The notes under the pieces are model-generated. The model ran no database searches. It was not told the origin of the DNA and saw only the letters and a list, made by a program, of their open reading frames with translations. Source: Paenibacillus terrigena DSM 21567 (GTDB lineage: Bacteria > Bacillota > Bacilli > Paenibacillales > Paenibacillaceae). Taken from it: 64,000 nucleotides of DNA. The stretch lies in NCBI RefSeq assembly GCF_000374845.1, contig NZ_KB895424.1, positions 1 to 64,000 on the forward strand, given 5' to 3'. The position numbers and the translations under genes were made by a program. Shown piece by piece: positions 28,131 to 62,297 of the stretch (its first letter is position 1; every line of letters begins with the position of its first letter).

Positions 28131-28190
28131 GGGGTCCCCGCAAAGTACCCGGGACGCTTCGAAGCAATAACATCACTTTGTGGGGTTATT
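28131..28190 (+). repeat. structured intergenic element, copy 1 (CCCCGCAAAGT...ACTTTGTGGGG)
   Basis: Arms CCCCGCAAAGT (28136-28146) and ACTTTGTGGGG (28175-28185) form an 11-bp stem with one G-T pair around a variable 28-nt interior. The same arms with the same flanks (GGGGT before, TT after) occur at 47171-47226. It lies between the pot leader terminator and potA. Confidence 0.75.
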
Positions 28191-46699: not shown

Positions 46700-47063
46700 G
46701 GGGGCGTTCTTGGATTCGACGGGGGTAGTTCGGGCATGAGTAGCGGGTAGTGGGGACGCGACCGCTTCATCAACGCTAAAGCCTATTAAACGGCAAACAA
46801 CAAAACAACTTCGCATTAGCAGCTTAATAACCTGTTAGCGAGCTTCGCCTCTGCATCGCCCATGTGCCGAGACCGGGGCCCAACTTTAGTGGGATACGCT
46901 GTCACATCTCCGCCTGGGGTGTGCTGAAGAAGACAATCAGGCTGACCCAAAGTATAGCCGGTTACGGGGCGATACTCGGGTGACATCAAAACTGTAACTA
47001 CACCCGTAGAAGCTTATGTTGCGTTATCTTCGGACAGGGGTTCGATTCCCCTCGCCTCCACCA
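46700..47063 (+). ncRNA. ssrA: transfer-messenger RNA
   Basis: tRNA-like ends GGGGGCG and CGCCTCC-A-CCA pair; the T arm is GGACAGGGGTTCGATTCCCC. The tag frame, read GGC 46792 to TAATAA 46825, encodes GKQQNNFALAA, ending in the ALAA degradation signal. Pseudoknot-type stems fill the rest. The 3' end serves as the attachment site discussed under findings. Confidence 0.97.
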
Positions 47064-47067
47064 ACAT

Positions 47068-47097
47068 GAAAAAGGACACCTCAGAGGTGTCCTTTTT
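47068..47097 (+). terminator. ssrA terminator
   Basis: Stem AAAAAGGACACCTC / GAGGTGTCCTTTTT. Confidence 0.95.
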
Positions 47098-47114
47098 GCA
47101 TTGTGTGGAGACGA

Positions 47115-47333
47115 GACAGGGGATCGCCCCTGTCAGGGGTTCAGCCCGCGCGCAGGGAGCGAAAACAAGGGGTCCCCGCAAAGTAATCGGAAATCGCTGT
47201 AAGACTAAGCTTCACTTTGTGGGGTTGAGCATGGGAGCACGGCGTTTATATCCAACCTCTAATATCGCCGGCGGAGGATAGGCATCGTGAGCAAGTAAGA
47301 TGGAGATATGAACATTCCCCTCGCCTCCATCAT
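47115..47333 (+). repeat. ssrA-linked repeat module A with att-like core
   Basis: Begins with the inverted repeat GACAGGGG / CCCCTGTC, continues CAGGGGTTCAGCCCGCGCGC, contains the hairpin element CCCCGCAAAGT (47174-47184) / ACTTTGTGGGG (47214-47224), then a 95-bp block (47235-47329) that ends in ATTCCCCTCGCCTCCA, identical to the 3' end of ssrA (47045-47060). The 95-bp block recurs at 50754-50848 with 4 mismatches. No gene inside. Confidence 0.85.
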
Positions 47334-47334
47334 G

Positions 47335-47364
47335 AAAAGCCCGACCTCACGCGGTCGGGCTTTT
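47335..47364 (+). terminator. terminator following repeat module A
   Basis: Stem AAAAGCCCGACC / GGTCGGGCTTTT. Nearly the same hairpin recurs at 52028. Confidence 0.9.
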
Positions 47365-47577
47365 GATTTGCTCGGAATTGTAGACGGATTGTAGACATCA
47401 GATGAAATAGAAGTCTATTTTTTGATTATCCTGTAGACGAAAAGTCTACAAGTTATAGAAGGGTGTGCTCCCAAGCGATATTTTTACAAATTACTGCAAC
47501 TCTTTAACATGTAAATTTACAGTTCATCTTTATACTTAAATCGATATCATAATGTATTCGAAGGGGATTATAACTAC
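47365..47577. other. A/T-rich upstream region of the PHP/S-layer gene
   Basis: No gene. It contains two GTAGAC-type words in GAATTGTAGACGGATTGTAGAC and CTGTAGACGAAAAGTCTAC (GTAGAC...GTCTAC inverted repeat at 47432-47451), which may be a regulatory site for 47578. Confidence 0.45.
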
Positions 47578-50358
47578 ATGAACAGCAAGCTGAAGTCTTT
47601 AATTTGTACCTCATTCGCCTTTTTCATGCTCGCACAGAGTATGGCGACGGTGTCTGCAACAGGGAACACACCTTCCACCAATTCAACAGGAAGATGGATG
47701 TCTGGTGAGTACCATACCCACACCATACAATCGGCAGATGCATCCGAATCTTTTATGAAATTGGAAAATGTACTCGACGCTGCGTTTCGAGAGGATCTTG
47801 ACAATAAGCCTGTAGAAACAGTCACATCACTGACGTACGGCAATCCCTTTGATTTCATCGTGCTATCTGATCATCTGCGCGATTCACCGCGAGATCCAGA
47901 TGGTAACAGTAAGCCTACTGCACGTTGGGAAGCGATTAAAGAACAGCAGGACAAGCTTGCAGCGCTCCAATCTACTGGAAAATACGTAGGTAAATTCATT
48001 TATTCTGGCTTCGAATGGGACATGATGGGTTTGGATCATGGTTCTGTTGGTATTATTGATTCCAAAAGTAATGAAGTACCCATCGACGCTATTCATCAAT
48101 TCGAATGGTTGTACAGCTACGATACAACTCCAGGTATGTTTCATTCAAATGAGGATGCTCTTTGGGGACCGAGACTTGATAAGAATACGTTGAAACTCGA
48201 TAAAAATAAAACATTTGAAGCCATTGAATGGCTGAAAACGAATTACCCGGAGAGTTATGTATTGCTTAACCATCCGTCTAGACATAACGGCAGCAGTACG
48301 GGTGTTGTCACTATCGAAGACATTCGTAAGATGAATGATATTGCTCCTGAAATTGTGTTTGGCATGGAAGGGTTGCCGGGTAACCAAATGGCAGCCGGTG
48401 GGAATAGATCGGAATTAGCTGACGTATACGGCGGAGCTGATGTCATGGTCGCAAAGGTCGGCGGAATGTGGGATGCCATGCTTGGTGAAGGTCGCCACTT
48501 CTGGAACTTCACAAATTCCGACTTTCATTTTAAGGTGAGCAGCAATCGGAGTTATTCAAGCGGTTACTGGCCTAGCGAGTACTCGCGAAACAATACTTGG
48601 GTCGAGGGTAATACCTTCAAAGATATTGTTGAGGGTATGCGTTCAGGTAAATCTTATGCGGTTTATGGCGATCTCATCAATGCGCTTGACTTCAAAGCTA
48701 CTGGAAATGGCGCTCAAGCTGAAATGGGCGAGAACCTACAGGTAACCGAAGGGGATCTTACAACAATCAGCATTCGCTTTAAGAGCCCAGAGCACAACAA
48801 TTACGCACCAATCAGCCCGCATAATACCTCAGTCACTAATGATACCAAAGTAGATCATGTCGATCTAATCTCTGGAGAAGTGACTGGTAAGCTCGATGAA
48901 AGTCAATATGCCAGCAATACAACCAATGCCACGACGAAAGTCATTAAACGCTTTACCCAAGACGATTGGGGACAACCCGATGCCGAAGGCTATTATACTG
49001 TCTCTTATAAGGTGCCTGCGGATACAAACCGTTATTATCGTTTGCGCGGTACGAATCTGGGTACAGACGTAGCAGGCTTTACAGCTAGCGGAGAGCCTTT
49101 ACAAGATCAATCATTTGATAGGGGTAGTGACACGCCGGAGCAGAACGAGGAACGCTTCAATAATATTAATGACCGTAACTATACAGGATTGTGGTTTTAT
49201 TCCAACCCGATCTTTGTTGATGTCACCGCACTCAGTGATGAGCAGGCAGTTAACGATACGATTACTAGTGTAACTTCAACACTTGGTGATACAAGTGCGA
49301 TTACCACTAACATTCCCCTTCCTTCTGAAGGATTGCATGGTACACAGATTGAATGGAAGAGCAGTAATACGAATGTCATTCGCATCGACAACAACACCGC
49401 GGTTGTTACACGTCCATCCTCTGACATGGGGGATATGAGTATCACACTAACTGCAACGATCTCTCGCGGGGATCACAGCGTAAATAAACCGTACACCTTT
49501 ATCGTTAGAGCCAACCCTTCTAACAATTCGTCAGGCAATAGCTCGTCATCAGGCAATACTTCGCCAGGCAACAACTCTAGCAAGCCGAATGCGTCTGTCT
49601 CAGGTGGTGGAGGGACAGTTACTGCTGATTCGAATGGCAATATTACAATAACACCTGATAAAGGTTACCAGGTTAAAGATGTTACGATCAATGGGATATC
49701 TAAGGGAGCACTCACTCAATTGACAGGTATGAAATCTTCTGATCAAGTTGTTGTGACTTTCGAGAAGCTTCCGGAGCAACCTCAGAAGCCAACTGAGCCT
49801 GCTAAACCTGTTGTTACTTTTAGTGATGTTTCGAATCACTGGGCGGTTTCATCCATTAACTATGTTGTGGAGCATGGATTGTTCACGGGTACCGCGCCAA
49901 ATACGTTTAGCCCGAACCAAACTATGACTCGTGGTATGCTGGTCACGGTTATGCACCGCTTAGCTGGTAAACCAGAAGTAGGGTCAAGTCACTTCAAAGA
50001 TGTTAATACGAATGCCTATTACAGTGATGCGGTAGCTTGGGCAAGTCAGAATAACATTGTCCATGGGGTTGATAGTAGTCACTTTGCTCCAGATCGACCG
50101 ATTACTCGTGAACAACTTGTACAGATGCTCTTCAATTATGCAAAAGCAAACCAATTGAATGTTAACGCTAGCCAGTCATTAGTCGCTTTCACAGATGCGA
50201 AGAAAATCTCAGCTTGGGCAGTTGATGCCATGAAGTGGTCCGTAAGCAACCAGTTACTTTCTGGTAAGGGTAATGGCATGCTGGATCCGACGGGTGCTGT
50301 ATCACGTGCTGAAGTCGCAGCAATTATTAATCGTTTTATGACTACCTTTAACATGTAA
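47578..50358 (+). CDS. secreted PHP-domain protein with Ig-like region and three SLH domains
   Basis: 926-residue surface protein. Signal peptide about 1-28 (cleavage near VSA-TG). A PHP metal-dependent phosphoesterase-like domain (about 38-400): GEYHTHTIQSAD near 43, FIVLSDHLRDS near 95, LNHPSRH near 225, and FTNSDFHFK near 310 supply the metal His/Asp residues. Residues 560-640 look like an atrophied bacterial Ig domain (ALSDEQAVNDTITSV, IEWKSSNTNVI). A Ser/Asn/Gly linker (NNSSGNSSSSGN) and an InlB-type repeat (GYQVKDVTINGIS) follow, then three SLH domains (745-926) that anchor it to wall polymer. It is the sole gene between two ssrA-end copies. Confidence 0.88.
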   Translation: MNSKLKSLICTSFAFFMLAQSMATVSATGNTPSTNSTGRWMSGEYHTHTIQSADASESFMKLENVLDAAFREDLDNKPVETVTSLTYGNPFDFIVLSDHLRDSPRDPDGNSKPTARWEAIKEQQDKLAALQSTGKYVGKFIYSGFEWDMMGLDHGSVGIIDSKSNEVPIDAIHQFEWLYSYDTTPGMFHSNEDALWGPRLDKNTLKLDKNKTFEAIEWLKTNYPESYVLLNHPSRHNGSSTGVVTIEDIRKMNDIAPEIVFGMEGLPGNQMAAGGNRSELADVYGGADVMVAKVGGMWDAMLGEGRHFWNFTNSDFHFKVSSNRSYSSGYWPSEYSRNNTWVEGNTFKDIVEGMRSGKSYAVYGDLINALDFKATGNGAQAEMGENLQVTEGDLTTISIRFKSPEHNNYAPISPHNTSVTNDTKVDHVDLISGEVTGKLDESQYASNTTNATTKVIKRFTQDDWGQPDAEGYYTVSYKVPADTNRYYRLRGTNLGTDVAGFTASGEPLQDQSFDRGSDTPEQNEERFNNINDRNYTGLWFYSNPIFVDVTALSDEQAVNDTITSVTSTLGDTSAITTNIPLPSEGLHGTQIEWKSSNTNVIRIDNNTAVVTRPSSDMGDMSITLTATISRGDHSVNKPYTFIVRANPSNNSSGNSSSSGNTSPGNNSSKPNASVSGGGGTVTADSNGNITITPDKGYQVKDVTINGISKGALTQLTGMKSSDQVVVTFEKLPEQPQKPTEPAKPVVTFSDVSNHWAVSSINYVVEHGLFTGTAPNTFSPNQTMTRGMLVTVMHRLAGKPEVGSSHFKDVNTNAYYSDAVAWASQNNIVHGVDSSHFAPDRPITREQLVQMLFNYAKANQLNVNASQSLVAFTDAKKISAWAVDAMKWSVSNQLLSGKGNGMLDPTGAVSRAEVAAIINRFMTTFNM

Positions 50359-50394
50359 CAATAAATACCATTTTCAAATGGACAAAAGTGCACC

Positions 50395-50409
50395 TTCCCT
50401 CGCCTCCAT
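50395..50409 (+). repeat. degenerate ssrA 3'-end copy
   Basis: TTCCCTCGCCTCCA, one C shorter than the ssrA end TTCCCCTCGCCTCCA, immediately followed by a terminator, as after ssrA itself. Confidence 0.75.
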
Positions 50410-50413
50410 ACTG

Positions 50414-50444
50414 AAAACCCAGTCCCCACAAGGGCTGGGTTTTC
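50414..50444 (+). terminator. terminator after the 50395 core copy
   Basis: Stem AAAACCCAGTCC / GGGCTGGGTTTT. Confidence 0.88.
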
Positions 50445-50467
50445 TATGTGTAAAGAAGAGAAAAATC

Positions 50468-50688
50468 CTATTTTGCATGCTTATCTGGCTGATGAATACC
50501 AAATACATTTCCTTCTGTGTCAATGTAATACCCTTGCCATGCCATTCCAGGCAGTGCATACTTTGGTAATGCGAGCTTGCCTCCGAGATTAAGAATTTTA
50601 GTTTCAGTAGAATCATAGTCTTCTACTCCCATAGTACATGCATAACCATTCATAGCCTGTCCAGGTTGGGGGGAAGCACCTTGACGTT
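50468..50688 (-). pseudogene. truncated VOC-family (glyoxalase-fold) gene
   Basis: The minus strand encodes the C-terminal half of a VOC protein (MNGYACTMGVEDYDSTE to GIHQPDKHAK), about 90% identical in protein to residues 70-131 of the intact gene at 52078. Nucleotide similarity continues to 50688 (CCTTGACGTT) and stops exactly where repeat module B begins, so the 5' half was lost by recombination with the repeat. Confidence 0.85.
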
Positions 50689-50851
50689 CCTGTCAGGGTT
50701 CAGTCCGCGCGCAGGGAGCGAATGAGATGCTTCGGAGGGGTAGCTTCGCGAACGAGCACGGCGTTTATATCCCACCTCTAATATCGTCTGCGGAGGATGG
50801 GCATCGTGAGCAAGTAAGATGGAGATATGAACATTCCCCTCGCCTCCACCA
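50689..50851 (+). repeat. ssrA-linked repeat module B with att-like core
   Basis: Starts CCTGTCAGGGTTCAGTCCGC, lacks the CCCCGCAAAGT hairpin of module A (different 30-nt interior), shares the 95-bp block 50754-50848 (91 of 95 identical), and ends ATTCCCCTCGCCTCCACCA (50833-50851), the full 3' end of ssrA including CCA. Confidence 0.85.
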
Positions 50852-50854
50852 TGT

Positions 50855-50886
50855 AAATCCACAACCGCATGAGGTTGTGGGTTTTT
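50855..50886 (+). terminator. terminator after repeat module B
   Basis: Stem AAATCCACAACC / GGTTGTGGGTTT with a T run. The 20 bases CACCATGTAAATCCACAACC (50847-50866) recur at 62553. Confidence 0.9.
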
Positions 50887-51163
50887 GCCATCGTTCAATA
50901 ACCATCTATGGATTTATACACTTTCTGGATAGCCTGCACTAAGTTAGTCAGAAAAAATAAGGGCTAGTAAAATGAAGGCAACAGAGAGAAAGGATCGCGG
51001 AAAATTAGCGCCTTTGCTTCGATAAGTTCATCTGAATAGGACCAGTCCTAGTCTAAAGTCTAGGTTCAGTCACCCCCTAAGACGGTTATGTCAGGCAAAT
51101 AAGGCGGATATAATGGATTTATAACTCAGAACGTGACTTATGAAGCTAAAGGAGTGTTTGAAA
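50887..51163. other. non-coding stretch upstream of the sensor-domain gene
   Basis: No gene seen. A possible promoter TTATGT-N17-TATAAT lies near 51085-51113. Confidence 0.45.
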
Positions 51164-51955
51164 ATGAAGGGAATAGACGCGACAGCAATGGCGCAGTCAG
51201 GGAAGGTGCGTTGGGTGCTTTTTAATCCAAAAACCTATGCAACGATTCTCTATTTATTGTTATCCCTCCCATTAGGGATTATCTATTTTTCAGTAGCGAT
51301 AACGGGACTTGCACTATCCATCAGTTTAACCCCAATATTTATCGGAATACCGCTGTTTTTTGGAGTAGCTAAGCTGTTGAATGGGATTGTGAATTTTGAA
51401 CAAAACATAATTAGACAAATTTTAGGTTTACCTACGCCACCTGTTTCATTAACCTACAACCGACAGTCTGAAGCTGGGCAGAACTGGTTGATGCGAATGA
51501 TGAGAGGTTTTGACGGGGCGCTATTTATTCGAAACCTGCTACTCGTATTACTTAGATTTATAACAGGCATTGTATTCTTTACTATTATGGTAACGGTGAT
51601 TTCGCTAGGACTAGGATTGATTGCTCTTCCAGTCGTGCATATCATTTTGATGAATGAAATGCAGCTTGATATTTTAGAGAATAGCTTGTTTAGTTATTTT
51701 CATATAGATTGGACCTATAATCAGCAATATCTGTTGTACGTAGGAGTTGGCCTTGTACTTTTTTGGATCGCGCTTCGCGTCGTGAACGGGCTCATGCAAG
51801 TTCAGCGCAGAATCATGTATGTGGATGAGCCATATCAGCAGCCGTCAGTACCAGTGGAAGCACAAATACATGCGACGGTTCAGCCGCAATATTATGAGTA
51901 CCAAGAGGATCAGCCTACTCAAGGGAAGATGCAGCCAGCCTATAGAGAGCTTTAA
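51164..51955 (+). CDS. membrane protein with putative sensor domain
   Basis: 263 residues with four to six hydrophobic segments (ILYLLLSLPLGIIYFSVAITGLALSI; LFFGVAKLLNGIVNF; LLLVLLRFITGIVFF; LLYVGVGLVLFWIAL). The arrangement resembles the sensor domain found at the N-terminus of some histidine kinases, but no kinase part follows. The C-terminal 40 residues are Gln/Tyr/Pro-rich (QPQYYEYQEDQPTQ). AAGGAG is 10 nt before ATG 51164, better than ATG 51140. Partner and signal unknown. Confidence 0.7.
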   Translation: MKGIDATAMAQSGKVRWVLFNPKTYATILYLLLSLPLGIIYFSVAITGLALSISLTPIFIGIPLFFGVAKLLNGIVNFEQNIIRQILGLPTPPVSLTYNRQSEAGQNWLMRMMRGFDGALFIRNLLLVLLRFITGIVFFTIMVTVISLGLGLIALPVVHIILMNEMQLDILENSLFSYFHIDWTYNQQYLLYVGVGLVLFWIALRVVNGLMQVQRRIMYVDEPYQQPSVPVEAQIHATVQPQYYEYQEDQPTQGKMQPAYREL

Positions 51956-51970
51956 AAGCTCTCTTTTTGT
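51944..51970 (+). terminator. terminator overlapping the end of the sensor-domain gene
   Basis: AGAGAGCTTT / AAGCTCTCT followed by five T; the TAA stop lies in the loop. Confidence 0.9.
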
Positions 51971-51985
51971 GTGGCGTGATCTTCT

Positions 51986-52020
51986 GACAGGGGTTGCCCC
52001 TGTCAGGGGTTCAGTCCGCC
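51986..52020 (+). repeat. partial copy of the repeat module 5' end
   Basis: GACAGGGG-TTG-CCCCTGTC followed by AGGGGTTCAGTCCGC matches the start of module A, then jumps directly to the module-A type terminator at 52028. The middle and att core are missing. Confidence 0.8.
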
Positions 52021-52027
52021 TTCAGTT

Positions 52028-52058
52028 AAAAAGCCCGACCTCACACGATCGGGCTTTT
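52028..52058. terminator. terminator shared by convergent genes
   Basis: AAAAAGCCCGACC / GATCGGGCTTTT, almost the same as 47335-47364. It also faces the end of the minus-strand VOC gene. Confidence 0.85.
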
Positions 52059-52077
52059 GCCTATGCAATGAAAAATA

Positions 52078-52473
52078 TTATTTTGCGTTCTTATCTGGCT
52101 GATGGATGCCAAATACATTTCCCTCAGTGTCAATGTAATACCCTTGCCAAGCCATTCCGGGGAGTGCGTACTTTGGTAATGCGACCTTGCCTCCAAGACT
52201 AACAATTTTTTCTTCAGTAGAATCGTAGTCCCCCACTCCAATTGTACATGCATAACCATTCATAGCCTGACCTGGTTCTGGAGAGGCCCCTTGACGTTGC
52301 ATCAAAGCCCCGTTGATTCCAAGTTCATTTTCAGTGCCCGTAACAGCTCCAAAATAGGGCATTCCAGCATAAGTGCTCCAATCCTCAAATGTCCATCCAA
52401 ATACCTCTCCATAAAACTTCTTGGCACGCTCCATGTCATCTACATGAATCTCGAAATGAACTATTCTGCCCAT
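52078..52473 (-). CDS. VOC-family (glyoxalase/bleomycin-resistance fold) protein
   Basis: 131 residues with two beta-alpha-beta-beta-beta halves: IVHFEIHVDDMERAKKFYGEVFGWTF at 4-29 and the second module from about 70 with GGKVALPKYALPGMAWQGYYIDTEGNVFGI. His6 and Glu near the C-terminus could be metal ligands. The PKYALPGMGW-like stretch is typical of small VOC proteins of unknown substrate. AGGAGGT precedes the start. A broken second copy lies at 50468. Confidence 0.88.
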   Translation of the reverse strand: MGRIVHFEIHVDDMERAKKFYGEVFGWTFEDWSTYAGMPYFGAVTGTENELGINGALMQRQGASPEPGQAMNGYACTIGVGDYDSTEEKIVSLGGKVALPKYALPGMAWQGYYIDTEGNVFGIHQPDKNAK

Positions 52474-52611
52474 GATTATTACCTCCTACGTAATGGTTTT
52501 CTTTAATCTTTTATTATGCATTCTTTTTGATTCTCCTTCTTCATTATTGTAATTAATTTAGGAATTATTCAGGGGTTCCTGCGACAATTTGAAGAAAATC
52601 ATTTGGTCATA

Positions 52612-52629
52612 TATAATAAGGTTACAAAC
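52612..52629 (+). promoter_or_regulatory. marR -10 box with operator-like half-site
   Basis: TATAAT (52612-52617) directly followed by AGGTTACAAAC (52619-52629). AGGTTACNAAC also occurs twice downstream of this gene (53184, 53287), suggesting autoregulation. Confidence 0.5.
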
Positions 52630-52693
52630 AAATAAGATGGTGGACAATATCGATATAAATAGAGAGAATAATATTATTTTTAACCAAGAAAAA

Positions 52694-53149
52694 ATGTCGA
52701 AACAACATACTCAATTAGATACCCAATCGTTAACGACTCTTATTTTCCTCATGGAGAGTTCGCATGAAATATTTAAAGAAATAACTGTTCATCTTTCCAA
52801 ATTTGGACTTTCAGTGGCGAAAGTAAAAGTACTACAGACACTTTTCAGTGAAGAAAAGCCAATGATGCCATCTGAATTAGCGAAAAATTCCGGTGTTTCG
52901 AGATCAACGATGACCGGATTACTGGATGGTCTTGAACGTGACGGCTTGATCTATAAAGGAGAAGGGGATGATCGCAGAATTACCCTTATTTCTATATCAG
53001 AAGCGGGAGTAAATCTCATGAATACGCTGCAGCCTTACTATGCAGCCCTTGCTGACAAAATTACCAGTGACGTAACAAAAGAGGAACAGGATTTATTGGC
53101 TCAACTATTAGTGAAGTTGAAGCGCAGTTTAGAAGGACAGAAAGGTTAA
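52694..53149 (+). CDS. MarR-family transcriptional regulator
   Basis: About 151 residues with the MarR winged helix: LSVAKVKVLQTLFSEEKPMMPSELAKNSGVSRSTMTGLLDGLERDGLI and the wing GEGDDRRITLISISEAG. The start is unclear. ATG 52694 gives the usual family length; ATG 52637 would add 19 residues and neither has a good ribosome site. TTG 52589 lies upstream of the -10 box and is excluded. It probably controls itself and the SDR-isomerase genes. Confidence 0.85.
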   Translation: MSKQHTQLDTQSLTTLIFLMESSHEIFKEITVHLSKFGLSVAKVKVLQTLFSEEKPMMPSELAKNSGVSRSTMTGLLDGLERDGLIYKGEGDDRRITLISISEAGVNLMNTLQPYYAALADKITSDVTKEEQDLLAQLLVKLKRSLEGQKG

Positions 53150-53168
53150 TTTTTTTTCGTAAATAGTT

Positions 53169-53196
53169 CGGTCCCGCATTATCAGGTTACGAACTA
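53169..53196 (+). promoter_or_regulatory. 28-bp direct repeat, copy 1 (putative MarR site)
   Basis: CGGTCCCG-CATTATC-AGGTTACGAACTA; 25 of 28 bases equal copy 2. It is flanked so that TAGTTCG (53164-53170) pairs with CGAACTA (53190-53196). Confidence 0.6.
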
Positions 53197-53264
53197 TATT
53201 TCTCTGTCCTACACTTTTCTTCTTTTTGCTTAAGAACAAACATAGAAGTCGTATCTTTTGCTCA

Positions 53265-53299
53265 TATAATACGGTCCCGTACTATCAGGTTACCAACTA
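53265..53299 (+). promoter_or_regulatory. -10 box and 28-bp direct repeat, copy 2 (putative MarR site)
   Basis: TATAAT (53265-53270) followed at once by CGGTCCCG-TACTATC-AGGTTACCAACTA (53272-53299). Copies 1 and 2 start 103 bp apart. The place just after a -10 box fits repression of the SDR gene. Confidence 0.6.
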
Positions 53300-53418
53300 A
53301 AATGAAGGGAGGTGGTAGGAAAATAAATCATCGTAGTTGTAGAGTGGCATATGATTTTTGAATTTACTCGATGCTGTGTTTAAGTGGAAAAAAATGTGAC
53401 AAAAAAGGAGTGACAAGA

Positions 53419-54171
53419 ATGGGACGTCTAGAAAATAAAGTTGCAATTATTACGGGTTCTGCCGGAGGGCAAGGAAAAGCGGAGGCAATTCTTTTCGCAA
53501 AAGAAGGAGCCAAAGTAGTCGTAACAGATGTGCAGGAAGACAAAGTTAATCAAGTCGTAGCTATCATCAAGGAAAATGGCGGGGATGCAATTGGCTTTTA
53601 CCATAACGTGGCATCCGAAGATAACTGGATTCAAGTGGTTAAAGATACGGTTAAAGCCTTTGGTAAAGTGGACGTCCTCGTGAACAATGCGGGTATTACC
53701 AGTAATATACCGCTTATTGATACCCCACTTGAACAATGGAACAAAGTGATCGACATCAACTTAACAGGCACTTTTCTTGGCATGAAACATGTGATTCCAG
53801 TAATGCTGGAAAATGGGGGTGGTTCCATTGTTAACATTTCATCCATTGCTGGATTAACTGGCGGCAGTGGAGCCGGTGCCTATACAGCTTCAAAAGGAGC
53901 AATTCGACTTTTCACAAAGGCGGCAGCTATTGATTATGCTAAGCAAAATATCCGAGTGAACTCCGTTCATCCGGGCTATATTGAAACACCGATGACAGAG
54001 GCATTCTTTTCGAATGAGCAGATGCTGAACTGGTTTAAGGCAGCTACGCCTCTTCCATACCTCGGGAAACCGGAAGACATCGCTGAAGGTGTCCTATATC
54101 TTGCTTCAGATGAATCTAAATTTGTAACAGGCATTGAACTCCCGATTGATGGGGGATATTCAGCACAGTAG
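53419..54171 (+). CDS. short-chain dehydrogenase (hydroxysteroid-dehydrogenase-like)
   Basis: 250-residue classical SDR. NAD(P) motif TGSAGGQGKAE at 12-22, Asp37 in VTDVQ favouring NAD(H), NNAG at 89-92, catalytic Ser141/142, Tyr155 and Lys159 in YTASKGA, HPGYIETPM near 186. It resembles 3-alpha/20-beta-hydroxysteroid and cyclopentanol dehydrogenases; the true substrate is unknown. AAAGGAGTG precedes ATG 53419. The next gene, a ketosteroid isomerase, makes a steroid or terpenoid ketone plausible. Confidence 0.9.
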   Translation: MGRLENKVAIITGSAGGQGKAEAILFAKEGAKVVVTDVQEDKVNQVVAIIKENGGDAIGFYHNVASEDNWIQVVKDTVKAFGKVDVLVNNAGITSNIPLIDTPLEQWNKVIDINLTGTFLGMKHVIPVMLENGGGSIVNISSIAGLTGGSGAGAYTASKGAIRLFTKAAAIDYAKQNIRVNSVHPGYIETPMTEAFFSNEQMLNWFKAATPLPYLGKPEDIAEGVLYLASDESKFVTGIELPIDGGYSAQ

Positions 54172-54247
54172 GGAATTGGTGCTCAACATCCAATTAAAGG
54201 GAACAGACAGTTTTACCCAAATTAAAATTGAGAAGGGAACGAATAAT

Positions 54248-54625
54248 ATGTCAACACAATCCGAAATGAAAGCCGTAATGCAAAAATACCTCGACGCATT
54301 TAATGCCCAAGATGCAGATGCAGTCCTTGCGCTCTATGCCGAAAATGCGACGGTCGAGGACCCAGTCGGTTCCCCACCGTTACAAGGCAAGGAGGCCATT
54401 GGCGCATTCTATCAGAAGGTTATACCTATGGGTAGCAAACTTAAATTGGCTGCCCCAATCCGCGGATCCCATAGCAACTCGGCAGCGATGGCATTTGTGG
54501 TAGAAAGTGCCATGGACGGTCATACGGTCAATATCAATGTCATCGATGTCATGACGTTTGATGAATCCGGCAAAATTACCAGCATGCGAGCATATTGGGG
54601 TAAGGAAGACTGCAATATCCTGTAA
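54248..54625 (+). CDS. steroid delta-isomerase (ketosteroid isomerase family)
   Basis: 125 residues, the classical length of bacterial 3-oxo-delta5-steroid isomerase. The catalytic residues are present: Tyr14 in MQKYLDAF, Asp38 in ATVEDPVGSPP, and Asp100 in NVIDVMTFDESGKI. The order and spacing are those of the Comamonas/Pseudomonas enzymes, not just of the wider SnoaL/NTF2 fold. AGAAGGGAACG precedes ATG 54248, 76 bp after the SDR gene. The pair likely acts in one pathway. Unusual for a Firmicute and in a region with insertion signs. Confidence 0.85.
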   Translation: MSTQSEMKAVMQKYLDAFNAQDADAVLALYAENATVEDPVGSPPLQGKEAIGAFYQKVIPMGSKLKLAAPIRGSHSNSAAMAFVVESAMDGHTVNINVIDVMTFDESGKITSMRAYWGKEDCNIL

Positions 54626-54823
54626 TTCCAATGATAACGTGCTGATATTATTGCACATTGATTATCCTAGAATTCCAGAAAAACTCCAAAAGGGGACAGG
54701 CGTGTATTCATGGCCATGTCCCCCTGTTGTTGAGAAACATATGCCGCACCGATGGCAACTGTGGACGGCGTACTATTATGTTATCGTGACCAAGCCGAAT
54801 GGTGGATTTTCCAAGCCATGGTT
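54626..54823. other. non-coding stretch after the isomerase gene
   Basis: No gene seen. A hairpin GGGGACA...TGTCCCC (54693-54724) with no T run could be a 3' processing site. Confidence 0.45.
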
Positions 54824-54930
54824 CGCCTCCACCAAAAAGCTGAACACCCAGACCGCATGAGGTCTGGGTGTCCTTTTTGCATTGGAGGAGTCTCGGGGGG
54901 GCGAACCCTGGGTTCAGGCCGCGCGGCGGA
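54824..54930 (+). repeat. degenerate ssrA 3'-end copy with downstream module
   Basis: CGCCTCCACCA (54824-54834), then a terminator, then GGTGTCCTTTTTGCATTG (54867-54884), identical to the bases following the ssrA terminator (47087-47104 region), then a decayed GGGTTCAGGCCGCGCGG. It copies the ssrA-proximal region in order. Confidence 0.8.
54844..54877 (+). terminator. terminator after the 54824 core copy
   Basis: Stem ACACCCAGACC / GGTCTGGGTGT then CCTTTTT. Confidence 0.9.
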
Positions 54931-54936
54931 TAGTGA

Positions 54937-55587
54937 TTACTTTCCGTGGATAAGATACGGGCTCAATCCCGTTGCAATCAGGCGATGCCCCCGATCATTG
55001 GGGTGAATGGGCAGAGATCCGCTTAACGCATCTTCAATTTTTCCGTTGCGATATCCATAGATAAGATTGGCCTGTCTTCCTTCAAACCACATATGAGCAG
55101 GGGCTACTGTGGCATCATAACGACGAGCTGTGTCTTGTATGATACGATTAAATTGGCTGATCGACTCGACTGCAAGAGAGCTGTTCGGAAATGGATTGTA
55201 CTGCGTGCAGCAAATGATTCGGGCACGGCTTCTTTTTTTGATCAGAGTGAGAAGTGAGCATAAATTTCGGCTGTAGTTAGTTGCAAGTTGTTTGGCAGGT
55301 AAGGGGGATTGGCTTCTAAGGGAAGAAATCGCGGCATTCGCTAAATCTACTCCTCCGATCCATATAGAAACCACATCCGATTGATGAATCATTGAGGCGC
55401 CTCGCCATAACACTGCATCTAATAAATTTTTGCTGGTCCAACCAGACCGAGCCAGAACATGCCCAGTAACCTTACGGGAGCGTGTGTTTAATGCAGATAC
55501 TATCAATTGGGGATAAGCATTTACTTTGGAGGAGGCATCTTTCCCAAATGTAATGGAATCCCCAAGAGCTGTATAGATCATAGGCAT
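54937..55587 (-). CDS. SGNH/GDSL-type hydrolase
   Basis: 216 residues, no signal peptide, so cytoplasmic. Block I GDSITFG near 9 with the nucleophile Ser, block III IGGVDLA near 78 (usual GGND has Asn; here Val replaces it), and block V HPNDRGH near 198 with Asp and His. The changed block III could weaken the oxyanion hole. Substrate unknown. The start has TAGGTTGGTGAT upstream. Confidence 0.85.
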   Translation of the reverse strand: MPMIYTALGDSITFGKDASSKVNAYPQLIVSALNTRSRKVTGHVLARSGWTSKNLLDAVLWRGASMIHQSDVVSIWIGGVDLANAAISSLRSQSPLPAKQLATNYSRNLCSLLTLIKKRSRARIICCTQYNPFPNSSLAVESISQFNRIIQDTARRYDATVAPAHMWFEGRQANLIYGYRNGKIEDALSGSLPIHPNDRGHRLIATGLSPYLIHGK

Positions 55588-55737: not shown

Positions 55738-55781
55738 AGGTGACATCAAAACTGTGATTGCACAAGTAGAAGCCTATGTGT
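55738..55781 (+). pseudogene. degenerate internal ssrA fragment
   Basis: AGGTGACATCAAAACTGT (55738-55755) plus the following 26 bases align with ssrA 46979-47022 (GGGTGACATCAAAACTGT, then GTAGAAGCTTATGT). About 35 of 42 aligned bases agree. Flanks on both sides do not match. It is a relic of tmRNA 8.7 kb downstream of the gene. Confidence 0.8.
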
Positions 55782-57844: not shown

Positions 57845-58033
57845 ATGGTGAGTTCCTTTCTTTGATGAATGAAGTGGATGTTGCTTTATGAATAGTATAT
57901 CTTCCATTTGTTAATGGATGATTAAGTTGAGCAGGGAATTTTTACAAGTCAAACTTTTTGAACCCGCTGTAACGTCAGTACTGTATCAAGAAGAGAACAT
58001 CTCATCATCCTAAAAAAGAAAGCAGGAATCAAC

Positions 58034-59083
58034 ATGAACTTCAAAAAAATCCTTACAAGTACTATGGTTGCATCGCTCGTACTCAGCGGAACCGCTATGG
58101 CCGCAAGCAATAATAGCTTTAAGCTGCCAACCAACATGCACAAGCTGGTGCAAAAACAAGTCGACGTGACTGGTGACAAAAAAGCGGACATCATCACACT
58201 TTATGGCCAGAAGGAGAAGGCAAGCGATATATATAATGAGGAATTGCTGCTTGTCATTAATGATGGTAAGTCAAAGAAAACGACCTCTATTTCGCTCCAT
58301 GACGGCGGGTATTCTCCTCAGCTCCTCGTTCCGGATCTTACCAATGATAAAGTGGCTGATATTATGGTTACTGCCGATACAGGCGGAAGCGGCGGTTATA
58401 AAACCAGCCATATTTACACTTTGAAGAACAACAAGCCTGCAGAACTTCCACAGCCAGGGCTTGCCAAAGGTAAGGTCGGCGTGCAGGGAAATGCTTTCAT
58501 TGACTTGAAACCAATCGTTCTGAACAAAAAAGGCGCCTACACGTTGCAAGGGGTTGAGAGAGTTGGAACTACCGTTTCGGATACAATCGCTTACGTTACC
58601 TCCGATTGGAAGTGGAACCAGGGCAAATGGGAGCTGTTTAACGTCAAAATAGAGCAGCCTAAGAAAGAATCGAATTCGTCTCAGGATCAGGTGAAAAGCT
58701 CGATTTACAAAAATACCGAAGCAAACTTCAGTGTAGAAATACCTTCCTCTTGGAATGGTAACTATAAGGTGCGCGCTGAAAAGTCCGACAGCATGTTCCC
58801 TTCGGCCAAGCATGTCGTTTACTTTGACTACACAACGAAGGATAAAAAAGATTCCCAATCGCTAATTACCATCTCTGTCTTCGCACAGAACGATTGGAAC
58901 AAGCTTTCCGATGATGACAAGAGCCAAATCGGAGGTACCCTTGCTGAGGCAAACGGTATGGTATATGTGTTAACAACACCTCAATCCAACCCGTTTGATC
59001 CTCAATCAGCTGACGGCAAGAAGTTTGATCAAATGTTCAAAGATTTGAACCTGAAAAAAGGATTTTCTGTTCTTAAAAAATAG
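58034..59083 (+). CDS. secreted protein of unknown function with VCBS/FG-GAP-like half
   Basis: 349 residues with a signal peptide (VASLVLSGTAMA, cleavage near AMA-AS). Residues 40-190 show the D-x-T-x-D-K-x-A-D pattern twice (VDVTGDKKADII, VPDLTNDKVADIMV), as in FG-GAP/VCBS-like beta-propeller or calcium-binding repeats. Residues 225-349 are a separate domain with an NFSVEIPSSWNG start similar to lipoprotein/PsbP-like domains. AGCAGGAATC upstream. No neighbours to suggest a role. Confidence 0.7.
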   Translation: MNFKKILTSTMVASLVLSGTAMAASNNSFKLPTNMHKLVQKQVDVTGDKKADIITLYGQKEKASDIYNEELLLVINDGKSKKTTSISLHDGGYSPQLLVPDLTNDKVADIMVTADTGGSGGYKTSHIYTLKNNKPAELPQPGLAKGKVGVQGNAFIDLKPIVLNKKGAYTLQGVERVGTTVSDTIAYVTSDWKWNQGKWELFNVKIEQPKKESNSSQDQVKSSIYKNTEANFSVEIPSSWNGNYKVRAEKSDSMFPSAKHVVYFDYTTKDKKDSQSLITISVFAQNDWNKLSDDDKSQIGGTLAEANGMVYVLTTPQSNPFDPQSADGKKFDQMFKDLNLKKGFSVLKK

Positions 59084-59106
59084 TCTGACGAACGGGCTAC
59101 ACGAAG

Positions 59107-59148
59107 AGGGCTGTCCAGTCATCGAAGATAACAGAGGACAGCCCTTTA
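59107..59148 (+). terminator. terminator after 58034 gene
   Basis: Stem AGGGCTGTCC / GGACAGCCCT with a 19-nt loop, then TTTATG. Confidence 0.8.
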
Positions 59149-59516
59149 TGCGCTTGGCAGCGAAGACTGTACATACATAATGTGAATTGTCTCGCGATGC
59201 GAACTGAGTTTTAGGTATATTTTCTTGTTGGAAATGATGTGTTGCGGCTGAACATGCCGTTCTTGTCCTTATTTGTTCCCAATGTCTCTAATCGAATCGT
59301 ATCGATTATGTATTGCAAAAATTGAAGTGAACGGAATGATAGGAACCTGGCCATGAGGTCAGGTTTTCATTTTGGGAACGAATATTTCCGCAATATTATT
59401 GATTTACAGCGAGATTTGCCTTCCATATTTGTCTATAGATTTGTTACTATGATACTAAGACGAATGGAAGTAATCTATAAGTGTTATAAATTAATTAATA
59501 TCGTGGAGGGAATGTA
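59149..59516. other. upstream region of the GH3 gene
   Basis: No gene. A hairpin AACCTGGCC / GGTCAGGTT with TTTTCATTTT (59344-59373) resembles a terminator. A possible -10 TATGATACT lies near 59450. Confidence 0.5.
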
Positions 59517-62297
59517 TTGAAAAACCAAAAATTTGGAGTTCCATTAGAAGGCTTTGCTGAATTTAGCAGAAAAGTAGCCGCAGAAGGTGCTGTGTTGCTA
59601 AAGAATGATGGGAATTTTTTTCCCGTTAGGAGAAACGTTTCGATTTTTGGCAGAACCCAAGTGAACTATTATCGCAGCGGTACAGGTTCGGGCGGCAGTG
59701 TCCATGTTACCCATACAACCAATCTGTTAGACGGTCTTCGGAGTAAAGAGAATATCACCGTCAATGAAGAGTTAGCAGCGGTATATGAGAAATGGATTGA
59801 GCAGAATCCATTCGATAATGGCGGAGGCGGTTGGGCGGCTGAGCCGTGGCACCAGAAGGAGATGCCTCTAACCGATGAGCTGGTGAAGGAAGCAAGAAAC
59901 AAATCCGACAAGGCGATCATTGTGATCGGACGTACGGCAGGAGAAGATCAGGATAACGCTGATGCGCCGGGAAGTTACCAGTTGACGGCAGAAGAAAAAG
60001 CAATGCTGCAGCGGGTGACCACACATTTTGAACAAACGGCTGTTGTACTCAACGTATCGAATATTATTGATATGAGCTGGATGAACGATGCCAGCTACGT
60101 GCACCCGATTTCATGCGTGATCTACGCGTGGCATGGCGGCATGGAAGGCGGCAATGCTATTGCAGACGTGCTGGCTGGTGACGTGACACCGAGCGGTAAA
60201 TTAACGGATACGATTGCGTATTCGATCGACGATTATCCTTCAACTCGCAACTACGGCCATGAGCTAAGAAGCGTGTATGAAGAAGATATCTACGTCGGTT
60301 ACCGTTTTTTCGAAACGTTTCAACCCAATAAGGTCCAGTTTGAATTTGGTTATGGCTTATCTTACACCGTATTTAGCATAATGCCTGAGGAAGCCAAGCT
60401 GGCCGTCAAAGAGGGGAAACAATACATTGAAATCGGCGTAACTGTACAAAATACGGGAGCCGAATTTGCAGGTAAAGAGGTCGTTCAAGTTTATTATGAA
60501 GCGCCGCAAGGGAAGCTGGGCCAACCGGCAAGAGTCTTGGCAGCATTCGAAAAGACGAAGGAGCTTCAGCCGGGCGAATCGCAGCGTCTTACCGTGAGTT
60601 TCCCTATTCATGCGATGGCTTCTTATGATGACGTCGGAGTGACAGGGCATCCTTCCGCCTATGTGTTGGAAGCCGGAACCTATCACCTGTACGTGGGGAA
60701 TAGTGTCAAGAATGTCGTTGAAATCGACGTTGAAGGACAAAAAGGATACATCGTGGAGACCCTTCAAGTTATAGAACAGCTGCAAGAGGCGATGGCGCCA
60801 ACGGAAAGCTTTACGCGAATGAAACCGGGCACTCGGAATGAAGACGGTACCTATGAACTTACCTATGCAGAGGTGTCGACACGCAAGGTTTCGATGGCGG
60901 AACGGATCGAGCAGAATCTTCCTAAGACGCTGGAGCAGACGGGGAACCAAGGGTATAGGTTAAGGGACGTTTATGACCAGAGAGTGAGCATGGAAGCTTT
61001 TATCGCTCAGCTTAGCGATGAGGATCTTGCCGCCATCGTTAGAGGAGAAGGTATGAGCAGTCCGCTCGTCACACCGGGTACAGCTTCAGCCTTCGGGGGT
61101 GTAAGTGATCCATTATTGAGTTACGGCATTCCGGTTGCCTGTACGGCGGACGGTCCGTCTGGGATTCGGATGGATAGCGGTCAGAAGGCGACGCAAGTGG
61201 CCATTGGAACCTTACTTGCTGCAACATGGAACACCGAATTGGTCGAAGAGCTTTACGTCATGGAAGGCCAAGAATTATTAAGCAATAACATCGACGCTTT
61301 GCTTGGACCGGGATTAAATATTCGGCGCAGTCCGCTGAATGGGCGTAATTTTGAGTATTTCTCGGAAGATCCGCTCATTTCCGGGATGTTCGCTGCAGCG
61401 TGCACGCGCGGTATTATGAAAGGCGGCTCGAATGGCACGTTGAAGCATTTCGCCTGCAATAACCAGGAGAAGCACCGCAGCAAGGTAAATGCCATCGTAT
61501 CTGAGCGCGCCCTCCGGGAGATTTATCTGAGAGGATTTGAAATCGCGGTCAAACAGGGCGGTGCAAATTCGATCATGACCTCCTACAATCCTATTAACGG
61601 GCATTGGGCTGCGTCGAATTATGATTTGAACACCACAATTCTGCGTGGGGAATGGGGCTTCAAAGGCATCGTGATGACGGATTGGTGGGCGATCATGAAT
61701 GATGTTGTTCATGGAGGGCCTGCGGATCGGAAACTTACGAATATGATGGTCCGTGCACAAAACGATCTGTATATGGTTGTGGGTAACTACGGCGCGGAGA
61801 CGAATATTTGGGGAGACAATACGATTGAATCCTTGGCAAACGGCTCCTTAACCCGCGGTGAGCTGCAGCGCTGTGCTACGAATATTTGTGAGTTCTTGAT
61901 GCAAGCACCGGTGTTCTCCAGAGAGCAAGTGATTGAAGAAACAATCCTAGCTTTCAAAGCGAATCCAACGCTTTCGTCGGAACAAGCGCAAGCATTATCC
62001 CACAATGCACAGGTTACAGTTTCTGCGACAGGGTCCACCTTGATGAAGGTTGAACAGGCTGGGGTATATCGGATCTTTGCTCATGTCATGTCACCGGATA
62101 ACGAGTTGGCTCAAAGCGCGTGTAACGTAACCTTGAACGATCAGACGGTGACGACGATTCAAACCAACGGTACAGAAGGCAGTTGGATCCAGTTGAAGCT
62201 GCTGAAAATCGAACTGGAAACAGGCGTATATGAACTGAAGTTTGATTTTGTCAAACCAGGCATGCAGATTGATTGGATCGAGTTTAAGCAAGTGTAA
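59517..62297 (+). CDS. glycoside hydrolase family 3 beta-glycosidase, swapped domain order
   Basis: 926-residue cytoplasmic enzyme (no signal peptide). The usual C-terminal GH3 alpha/beta sandwich comes first (AAEGAVLLKNDGNFFPV near 19; AIIVIGRTAGEDQDNAD near 140), then a fibronectin-III-like domain (300-400), then the catalytic TIM barrel with LGPGLNIRRSPLNGRNFEYFSEDP near 597, KHFACNNQE near 643, and nucleophile Asp722 in GIVMTDWWA. A beta-sandwich (CBM6/35-like, 830-926) ends it. This order is known in some bacterial GH3 enzymes. Start TTG 59517 has GGAGGG 6 nt upstream; an out-of-frame ATG (59512) overlaps it and opens only ATG TAT TGA. Confidence 0.93.
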   Translation: MKNQKFGVPLEGFAEFSRKVAAEGAVLLKNDGNFFPVRRNVSIFGRTQVNYYRSGTGSGGSVHVTHTTNLLDGLRSKENITVNEELAAVYEKWIEQNPFDNGGGGWAAEPWHQKEMPLTDELVKEARNKSDKAIIVIGRTAGEDQDNADAPGSYQLTAEEKAMLQRVTTHFEQTAVVLNVSNIIDMSWMNDASYVHPISCVIYAWHGGMEGGNAIADVLAGDVTPSGKLTDTIAYSIDDYPSTRNYGHELRSVYEEDIYVGYRFFETFQPNKVQFEFGYGLSYTVFSIMPEEAKLAVKEGKQYIEIGVTVQNTGAEFAGKEVVQVYYEAPQGKLGQPARVLAAFEKTKELQPGESQRLTVSFPIHAMASYDDVGVTGHPSAYVLEAGTYHLYVGNSVKNVVEIDVEGQKGYIVETLQVIEQLQEAMAPTESFTRMKPGTRNEDGTYELTYAEVSTRKVSMAERIEQNLPKTLEQTGNQGYRLRDVYDQRVSMEAFIAQLSDEDLAAIVRGEGMSSPLVTPGTASAFGGVSDPLLSYGIPVACTADGPSGIRMDSGQKATQVAIGTLLAATWNTELVEELYVMEGQELLSNNIDALLGPGLNIRRSPLNGRNFEYFSEDPLISGMFAAACTRGIMKGGSNGTLKHFACNNQEKHRSKVNAIVSERALREIYLRGFEIAVKQGGANSIMTSYNPINGHWAASNYDLNTTILRGEWGFKGIVMTDWWAIMNDVVHGGPADRKLTNMMVRAQNDLYMVVGNYGAETNIWGDNTIESLANGSLTRGELQRCATNICEFLMQAPVFSREQVIEETILAFKANPTLSSEQAQALSHNAQVTVSATGSTLMKVEQAGVYRIFAHVMSPDNELAQSACNVTLNDQTVTTIQTNGTEGSWIQLKLLKIELETGVYELKFDFVKPGMQIDWIEFKQV

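Follow-up and report, generated by a model that had tools for sequence, protein, structure and literature searches.

Small gene-less units ending in copies of a tmRNA or tRNA-Ala 3' end recur behind these genes in Paenibacillus terrigena and other Paenibacillales

Why the 3' end of a tmRNA gene should occur several times in the DNA that follows it is the question raised by a locus of Paenibacillus terrigena DSM 21567 (contig NZ_KB895424.1, positions 1 to 64,000; these 64,000 nucleotides are referred to as the window). Here ssrA (46700..47063, detected by ARAGORN and as Rfam RF00023; features lie on the plus strand unless stated otherwise) ends in the target core ATTCCCCTCGCCTCCA, and a core search returns exact copies at 47045-47060, i.e., inside ssrA, at 47314-47329 and at 50833-50848. 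A shortened copy at 50393-50408 has three mismatches and reads CCCTCGCCTCCA from 50397, and a decayed copy, GGTTCGCCTCCA, is present at 54820-54831. Allowing up to three mismatches, the window holds five core matches, including ssrA itself and one within the tRNA gene at 572, compared to 0.49 expected, and none of 100 shuffled sequences reaches five. Behind each core stands a hairpin of individual sequence. The first-pass annotation had claimed these recurring ssrA ends, a hairpin terminator of its own after each of them and the lack of an integrase in the window. All three are confirmed, the last by a profile of ten integrases of the P. terrigena genome run on the window and by Pfam PF00589 run over the whole genome, neither of which finds a tyrosine recombinase there. 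The structured, gene-less unit itself, of which the cores are mostly the ends, had been missed.

Such a unit consists of a core, a terminator hairpin, an inverted copy of the end of the target, the motif GGGGTTC, a scaffold of ~125 nt and another core; it measures ~0.2-0.3 kb and ends in a copy of the 3' end of its target. Unit 1 (47061..47329, 269 bp) is intact, with the terminator hairpin at ~47070-47098, the inverted copy of the tmRNA 3' end at ~47104-47129, GGGGTTC at 47136-47142 and the covariance-model match of the scaffold at 47119-47314, followed by core copy 2 (47314..47329) as its end. Cargo module 1 (47330..50396) comprises a hairpin at ~47332-47367 and a gene at 47578-50358 for a protein of 926 aa with SLH and aBig_2 domains, and the shortened core copy 3 (50397..50408) is fused into the terminator of this gene. 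A glyoxalase gene fragment on the minus strand (50460..50688, 86% identical to 52070-52298) stops at the start of unit 2 (50683..50848), which is without the left hairpin and consists of the scaffold (50683-50833) and core copy 4 (50833-50848) as its end. The stretches 47235-47341 and 50754-50860 are 93% identical over 107 nt, both being element copies that end in the exact downstream cores.

Further downstream, two remnants of the gene-less element alternate with cargo. A gene for a protein of 271 aa (51140..51955; Pfam PF13796, Sensor) is placed differently in the genomes G001, G002 and G455, and its block starts at 51033-51046, remote from a core. The first remnant (51966..52060) retains the inverted copy, GGGGTTCAGTCCGC and a hairpin resembling that behind core 2, while its scaffold is deleted. 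It is followed by genes for a glyoxalase (minus strand), a MarR-type regulator, a short-chain dehydrogenase and a SnoaL-like protein (52078..54625, no single strand assigned) and by a second type of right end (GTGGATTT...CCATGGTTCGCCTCCA, 54795..54831), which contains the decayed core of the first-pass annotation. The second remnant (54838..54936) has a hairpin nearly identical to the one behind ssrA in G001, the inverted copy and GGGTTCAGGCCGCGCGGCGG, and is then truncated. The array continues with a gene for a GDSL-like hydrolase on the minus strand (54937..55587), placed differently in G001 and G002, and with a tmRNA 3' gene fragment (55739..55779, 85% identical to 46979-47019).

Searched with the covariance model, 113 of 295 genomes of the family and 141 of 392 of the order contain the scaffold, a patchy distribution over roughly one in three of these Paenibacillales genomes. 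Of 40 loci picked from high-scoring model matches, 34 have the unit starting 54-71 nt past a tRNA-Ala(GGC) gene (19 loci) or a tmRNA gene (15 loci) on the same strand; the other six have no intact t(m)RNA gene ahead of the unit. The gene directly before the units is intact and cores stand on both sides, and units behind tRNA-Ala(GGC) carry the core of that gene. Of the two targets, its own is the better match for the inverted copy in 26/45 tmRNA units and 30/52 tRNA-Ala units, and the worse match in 10/45 and 10/52, respectively. Units remote from any tRNA occur in G000:C2 and in G001. Tandem units are common, 42 of 57 exact core-to-core spacings (44 loci) being 189-323 bp, and most of these units are too short to hold a gene. 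The left ends carry hairpins of their own, which differ between neighbours in G002 and G059, and an array in L280 has two unit types in the order A B A B A A B'. Near-identical neighbouring units can be products of tandem duplication. No protein family occurs in more than five loci beside units (231 ORFs in 31 loci).

Comparison with relatives provides insight into insertion and exchange. In L313, L331 and L333, unit-free sites of other genera, a tRNA-Lys-like gene follows tRNA-Ala within ~15 nt; in the P. terrigena genome a unit of 264 bp, core to core, lies between tRNA-Ala and tRNA-Lys. The 3.1-kb module at 47320-50396 is 92% identical to G455, which belongs to another genus; the shared module breaks at cores, and its left neighbours differ between the window and G455. 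Comparing the regions downstream of ssrA, as had been proposed, shows this core-bounded module to be missing from the 40 kb read of either same-genus genome. Module order in G001 and G455 is unlike that of the window, and G002 has four shared genes in window order, but at other distances; the region is not shared unchanged among relatives, as both content and order of modules differ. A terminator that follows ssrA in one genome can recur, identical or nearly so, after a downstream core of another genome.

The suggestion that several rounds of insertion or a cassette-like array produced this region holds as far as repeated core-specific insertion and module exchange are concerned, for which the breaks of the G455 module at cores speak. 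The cassette-like reading is largely borne out as well, with three points that it had not anticipated: the cores mostly end a gene-less unit, this unit also occurs behind tRNA-Ala(GGC) genes, and at least one junction, that at 50397, where 425 bp of G455 including a unit and a tmRNA fragment are missing from the window, is better read as a deletion. Cores that occur genome-wide after unrelated genes, named earlier as evidence to the contrary, are found only in that units also follow tRNA-Ala and that one unit in the P. terrigena genome is remote from any tRNA.

The scaffold covaries strongly, with 91.7% of cells paired versus 76.4% in shuffles and a covariation score of 0.429 versus 0.163 shuffled and at most 0.046 in slid structures. 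This pattern indicates that the scaffold is folded as a single strand. At the 15 column pairs retained in the structure, 126 G-T cells stand against 38 A-C cells, by which the ssrA-sense strand appears favoured for the fold; an invariant C-A mismatch within one helix (130 of 140 copies), excluded from this sum, would become a G-T pair on the opposite strand. Conserved unpaired motifs are likewise present. Energy folding lends no support to thermodynamic stability in any of six units (z-scores +0.87 to -1.41). A known RNA family was dropped as a candidate, there being no Rfam match of the scaffold at curated gathering thresholds in three sources. Matches below threshold are mainly hairpin families, e.g., mir-4484 (37.3 bits, 90 needed) over the terminator palindrome, and the group I intron family is absent from the scaffold match lists up to E = 10 or 5.

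We interpret the unit as probably a site-specific integrative unit that is non-autonomous, depends on recombination in trans and requires a folded strand, be it RNA or single-stranded DNA. Repeated site-specific recombination at the tmRNA 3' end would have built the array behind ssrA. A putative recombinase supplied in trans would recognise the folded scaffold beside the core, as DNA or RNA, and join scaffold and core to the t(m)RNA end, which would make the scaffold the recombination site. The target gene would be left intact because the unit brings an identical core. Cargo between two cores would move or be lost along with the units in an integron-like manner, and the hairpins at the left ends would insulate transcription. 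Points that weigh against this reading are the start of the 271-aa gene block remote from a core, the share of inverted copies that fit their own target no better than the other, the six loci without an intact t(m)RNA gene ahead of the unit, the units remote from any tRNA, the folding energies and the conflicting strand signals.

A candidate enzyme was sought near other copies, as the earlier annotation had advised: profile searches of 77 loci found no intact tyrosine or serine recombinase assignable to the units, which fits recombination in trans. An array-encoded tyrosine integrase was dropped for the window and for the unit loci searched, where such genes occur as fragments in four loci (L045, L114, L279, L281). 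The large serine recombinases in two loci (L279, L192) were dismissed as the enzyme of the units, since they seem to be part of an element that splits the tRNA-Ala gene upstream of the anticodon. Integrase fragments behind a unit were also read by eye in L348 and L349. A single query for carriage of units by plasmids and another for phages gave no match at the sensitivity applied; seven stretches of viral contigs fit a 16-base motif, none of which the model confirmed at E 0.1, and no excised circle was seen.

It is possible, although we doubt it, that the array consists of ordinary stacked islands, i.e., of tyrosine-integrase elements at ssrA and tRNA-Ala with decayed integrases and cis-mobilizable remnants, the scaffold being the attP arm of one integrase family. 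The integrase fragments downstream of units fit this reading, as do intact integrases behind ssrA in L035 and L037, tmRNA 3' fragments in many of the genomes listed, and tyrosine integrases that lie immediately behind tRNA-Ala(GGC), and facing it, in six of 22 integrase loci (L351, L352, L353, L355, L358, L360). The scaffold, however, is absent from the 3.5 kb around these tRNA-Ala integrases and from L035 and L037, and one of the genomes concerned, G128, has no unit at all (G093 and G352 do). Moreover, compensatory pairs are not expected of double-stranded attP arms, and tandem units mostly leave no room for a gene.

Passages of the Islander study (PMC4383910) make a tyrosine integrase and a size >2 kb obligatory; the islands described there resemble our arrays in the regenerated t(m)RNA 3' end, the core fragments at the ends and the tandem arrangement, whereas the units are ~0.2 kb, gene-less and covarying. 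A 3'-end target with the gene intact and a repeated core are shared with tDNA islands, and an integrase on the element is not. Att-like cores flanking a stretch without integrase are as in a CIME; of the tRNA-Ala integrase elements, which might be autonomous relatives with common att arms, the 3.5 kb around the integrase show the same target gene and no scaffold. Parts of a study on Dehalococcoides (PMC3146451) report stacked ssrA islands in tandem, bounded by a 20-bp ssrA repeat, 15 without integration module and 16 with a DsiB serine-recombinase module. Multiple tandem inserts bounded by an ssrA repeat are common to both; those passages describe no structured unit, and no DsiB-type module beside attL was found at our arrays, the only serine recombinases being those of the element splitting tRNA-Ala.

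Rather unlikely is a functional RNA of use to host or element, produced when transcription from the t(m)RNA promoter reads through the scaffold, trimmed at the tRNA-like core by tRNA-processing enzymes and multiplied in tandem by duplication. It would account for the covariation, the excess of G-U over A-C cells where pairs covary, read on the transcript-sense strand, the conserved unpaired motifs and the fixed distance behind tRNA-Ala and tmRNA. Against it stand the terminator-like hairpin that precedes most of the units read for this, the patchy distribution, insertion between tRNA genes and folding energies no better than shuffled. This reading and the one that follows are rated lower because the invariant C-A mismatch, which would pair on the other strand, argues against the gene-sense strand. 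We regard it as quite improbable that the scaffold works as RNA in its own mobility, where the unit transcript would fold into a tRNA-end-like particle and direct or template insertion at the ends of alanine-accepting t(m)RNA genes. The case for a retro-element primed by tRNA, in which the inverted copy would be the primer-binding site, is weakened, because at genes lacking an encoded CCA this copy agrees with the flanking genomic sequence (by eye, uncounted).

Very improbable, finally, are arrays formed without unit mobility, by slippage during replication and homologous recombination at repeats of tRNA ends. Near-identical neighbours in L061 and L280 would speak for this, as would 14 of 140 units that are joined to fragments of t(m)RNA genes in a manner compatible with slippage; against it are the unit-free sites versus the 264-bp insertion, the differing hairpins of neighbours and the occurrence of one and the same unit at more than one target gene.

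These 14 units are located in T-loops of the fragments, too few for T-loop insertion as the primary form; they may have arisen where the palindrome flanked by two GGGGTTC repeats was deleted. Their position parallels the structured T-loop inserts of tmRNA group I introns, the founding ones averaging 293 nt according to passages of PMC11915505, in contrast to the scaffold with its ~125 nt and no Rfam group I match. No unit inside a functional t(m)RNA gene was seen in the loci read.

Under the integrative unit recombined in trans, a further parallel is with integron arrays (e.g., the abstract of PMC6393395), which likewise have a short shared core and reorderable cargo; their folded single-strand site at the cassette 3' end would have its counterpart in the covarying scaffold if this is the recombination site. 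The bottom strand is preferred by attC, whereas the gene-sense strand appears favoured, though not unanimously, for the scaffold, and unlike integrons our arrays have t(m)RNA genes as their anchor, with many units gene-less. No integron integrase was found nearby in cis, and no intact tyrosine recombinase was assigned to the arrays.

A gene-less unit of ~0.2 kb with a conserved folded core has apparently remained undescribed so far, and such units seem to let gene modules be swapped at t(m)RNA ends. If the scaffold is a recombination site used in trans, the arrays would serve Gram-positives as a platform for gene capture of the integron kind, driven by an undiscovered enzyme. Should the scaffold work as RNA instead, the unit would belong to a novel class of mobile element; with RNA acting in its mobility, it would be a gene-less integrative element that depends on RNA and the founder of a Gram-positive gene-exchange system. 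Either reading would account for the gene-exchange hotspot.

The tmRNA gene ssrA lies at 46700-47063, and five near-matches to its 3' end are present in the window against 0.49 expected. As the first-pass annotation had reported, the end recurs downstream of the gene, and each copy has a separate hairpin behind it. Exact copies lie at 47314 and 50833, a shortened one at 50393-50408 and a decayed one at 54820-54831. The segments 47235-47341 and 50754-50860 share 93% identity and are two copies of one element, with the exact downstream copies of the ssrA end (cores) at their ends. Core pairs about 200 bp apart likewise occur behind ssrA in the congeneric genome G002, in G059, G078 and further genomes. 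The unit is composed in a constant order of a core, a hairpin with a T-run, an inverted copy of the tmRNA end, GGGGTTC, GTCCGCGCG, a variable hairpin, GAGCACGG, a long stem and a core.

A covariance model of the unit was built from 14 copies from eight genomes, with the core excluded. In the family, 113 of 295 genomes gave a match, as did 141 of 392 in the order and 10 of 398 in the class (eight of these ten outside the family); the sets overlap and include the source genomes of the model. Named contigs with the unit include those of Paenibacillus curdlanolyticus, P. harenae and P. chitinolyticus. Rfam returned zero matches above threshold, and no description of a structured unit of this kind was found in the titles and abstracts searched, which covered few subscription papers and no bioRxiv preprints.

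The fold of the unit covaries. Among 140 distinct copies, mutual information picks out the terminal stem and the variable hairpin. Over 16 pairs, 91.7% of 2180 cells are paired (shuffled mean 76.4%, none of 500 shuffles as high) and two-sided changes affect 395 cells against 135.9 after shuffling; the covariation score is 0.429 against 0.163 shuffled and at most 0.046 when the structure is slid by 1-3 columns, figures that lean towards the fold because a smaller structure like it had served to fit the alignment and related sequences are counted many times. Minimum-energy folding gave no support (z-scores +0.87, -1.41, -1.25, +0.72, -0.88 and -0.24). In the 15 structure pairs among 23 listed column pairs, G-T cells outnumber A-C cells by 126 to 38, 22 of the latter coming from one column pair, and by 50 to 2 and 26 to 3 in the strongest covarying pairs. 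However, an invariant C-A mismatch inside a helix (130 of 140 copies) would read G-T on the other strand, so that the ssrA-sense strand is favoured as the folding strand, not proven. The working form of the fold could be DNA or RNA, on either strand.

The address of the unit was assessed at 40 loci (20 + 20), high-scoring model matches picked without reference to tRNA genes. At 34 of them a tRNA-Ala (19) or tmRNA gene (15) on the same strand lies 54-71 nt ahead of the start of a unit; the six exceptions are L115, L124, L279, L286, L294 and L297, of which L124, L279 and L297 have units behind t(m)RNA 3' ends missed by ARAGORN. In other Bacilli, tmRNA precedes the unit at three loci (L335, L340, L343), a weak single case (L341) stands behind a tRNA-Asp gene whose own end forms the core, and the remaining matches are without an adjoining gene. 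Exact core-to-core spacings (n=57 in 44 loci) are 189-323 bp in 42 instances and 422-6019 bp in 15, and at locus L280 two unit types alternate as A B A B A A B'. Distant from any tRNA, the genome of the window (G000:C2:518111-518252, L348) and the congeneric G001 (G001:C1:2796908-2797054, L349) each have a unit of the tRNA-Ala type, with its core and with a reversed integrase end recognised by eye.

The inverted copy tends to favour the unit's own target. Its complementarity to the target is 7.18 against 5.33 shuffled in 45 tmRNA units and 7.13 against 5.24 in 52 tRNA-Ala units, 43 of the 140 copies being excluded as unassigned or for a weak core. Own target compared with the other was better in 26, equal in 9 and worse in 10 tmRNA units, and correspondingly in 30, 12 and 10 tRNA-Ala units.

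Several other sequences were observed. A second recurrent right-end type, approximately CGGCGAATTGTGGTTTTGCACAGCCACGGTTCGCCTCCA, occurs at 54795-54831 and at 25 places in fetched loci; by eye it forms a hairpin of 12 bp, two of them G-T, that ends in the core, and it probably represents a different element family sharing the core with the unit. A small dispersed sequence, palindromic by eye (GGGGTCCCCGCAAAGT...ACTTTGTGGGG), lies at 47169-47225 within the variable hairpin of unit 1, at 28131-28187, and elsewhere in the genome at C1:721058 and C11:33936. The glyoxalase gene is duplicated (50460-50688 and 52070-52298), its first copy stopping at the start of unit 2, and a motif repeated at 53153-53196 and 53256-53299 (GGTTACnAACTA), close to a MarR-type regulator gene, is perhaps an operator.

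Profiles of 10 tyrosine and 4 serine recombinases from the window's genome were searched against 77 fetched loci (1.2 Mb), most with units. Four loci contained fragments of tyrosine integrases. Large serine recombinases were found twice (L279:1652-3448 and L192:1896-3644); the latter seem part of a separate element that splits tRNA-Ala(GGC) upstream of the anticodon, with GGTAGTGAAACAGACACA at each end in L192. Among 22 scanned loci, six have a member of one tyrosine-integrase family immediately after tRNA-Ala; there the scaffold (the folded part of the unit) is absent from the 3.5 kb read; of these genomes, G128 is without the unit and G093 and G352 have units. Since these searches, specific to tyrosine and serine types, yielded no enzyme for the unit, it either depends on an enzyme acting in trans or relies on another means. 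We infer a recombinase that acts in trans and requires the fold. Although the arrangement functions like an array of integron cassettes, we do not class it as one because the defining integrase was sought near the arrays and not found.

The initial reading of the repeated ends as stacked insertions agrees in part with the comparison of relatives, in which gene order, distances and module content behind ssrA vary. An ssrA match is present in 96 of 98 genomes (that of the window included), many of those listed with extra tmRNA 3' fragments. Both congeneric genomes carry the 271-aa gene, GDSL hydrolase, glyoxalase and HD-domain gene within 40 kb behind ssrA, with the hydrolase/glyoxalase order reversed in G001 and the window's order at changed distances in G002; the SLH module is missing from both 40-kb stretches. 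ssrA in the window and the second core in G002 are followed by the same hairpin, and the hairpins at 54838 and behind the core at 50833 are nearly the same as those behind ssrA in G001 and G007, respectively: these putative terminators swap places between ssrA and downstream cores across genomes. In G019, G012, G094 and G028 (L029-L032) ssrA is present as a tandem pair of nearly full-length copies whose starts lie about 0.5 kb apart.

Insertion takes place at t(m)RNA ends. In three loci of other genera (L313, L331, L333) a tRNA-Lys-like gene, identified by eye, follows tRNA-Ala almost directly, and in the genome of the window a unit with a core on each side (264 bp core to core) lies between tRNA-Ala and tRNA-Lys, both called by ARAGORN. 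The segment 47320-50396 is 92% identical to 57981-61056 of G455, a genome of another genus. The left edge of this homology falls inside the core, preceded by unit scaffold in the window and by an unrelated hairpin end in G455; the right edge falls a single base short of the shortened core (50397), and here G455 carries a further 425 bp that include a tmRNA fragment and a unit. These edges and differing flanks show a core-bounded module joined to different neighbours, the shortened core probably marking a deletion. Other blocks, among them that of the 271-aa gene, start away from a core. One module, bounded by cores, has been exchanged between genera.
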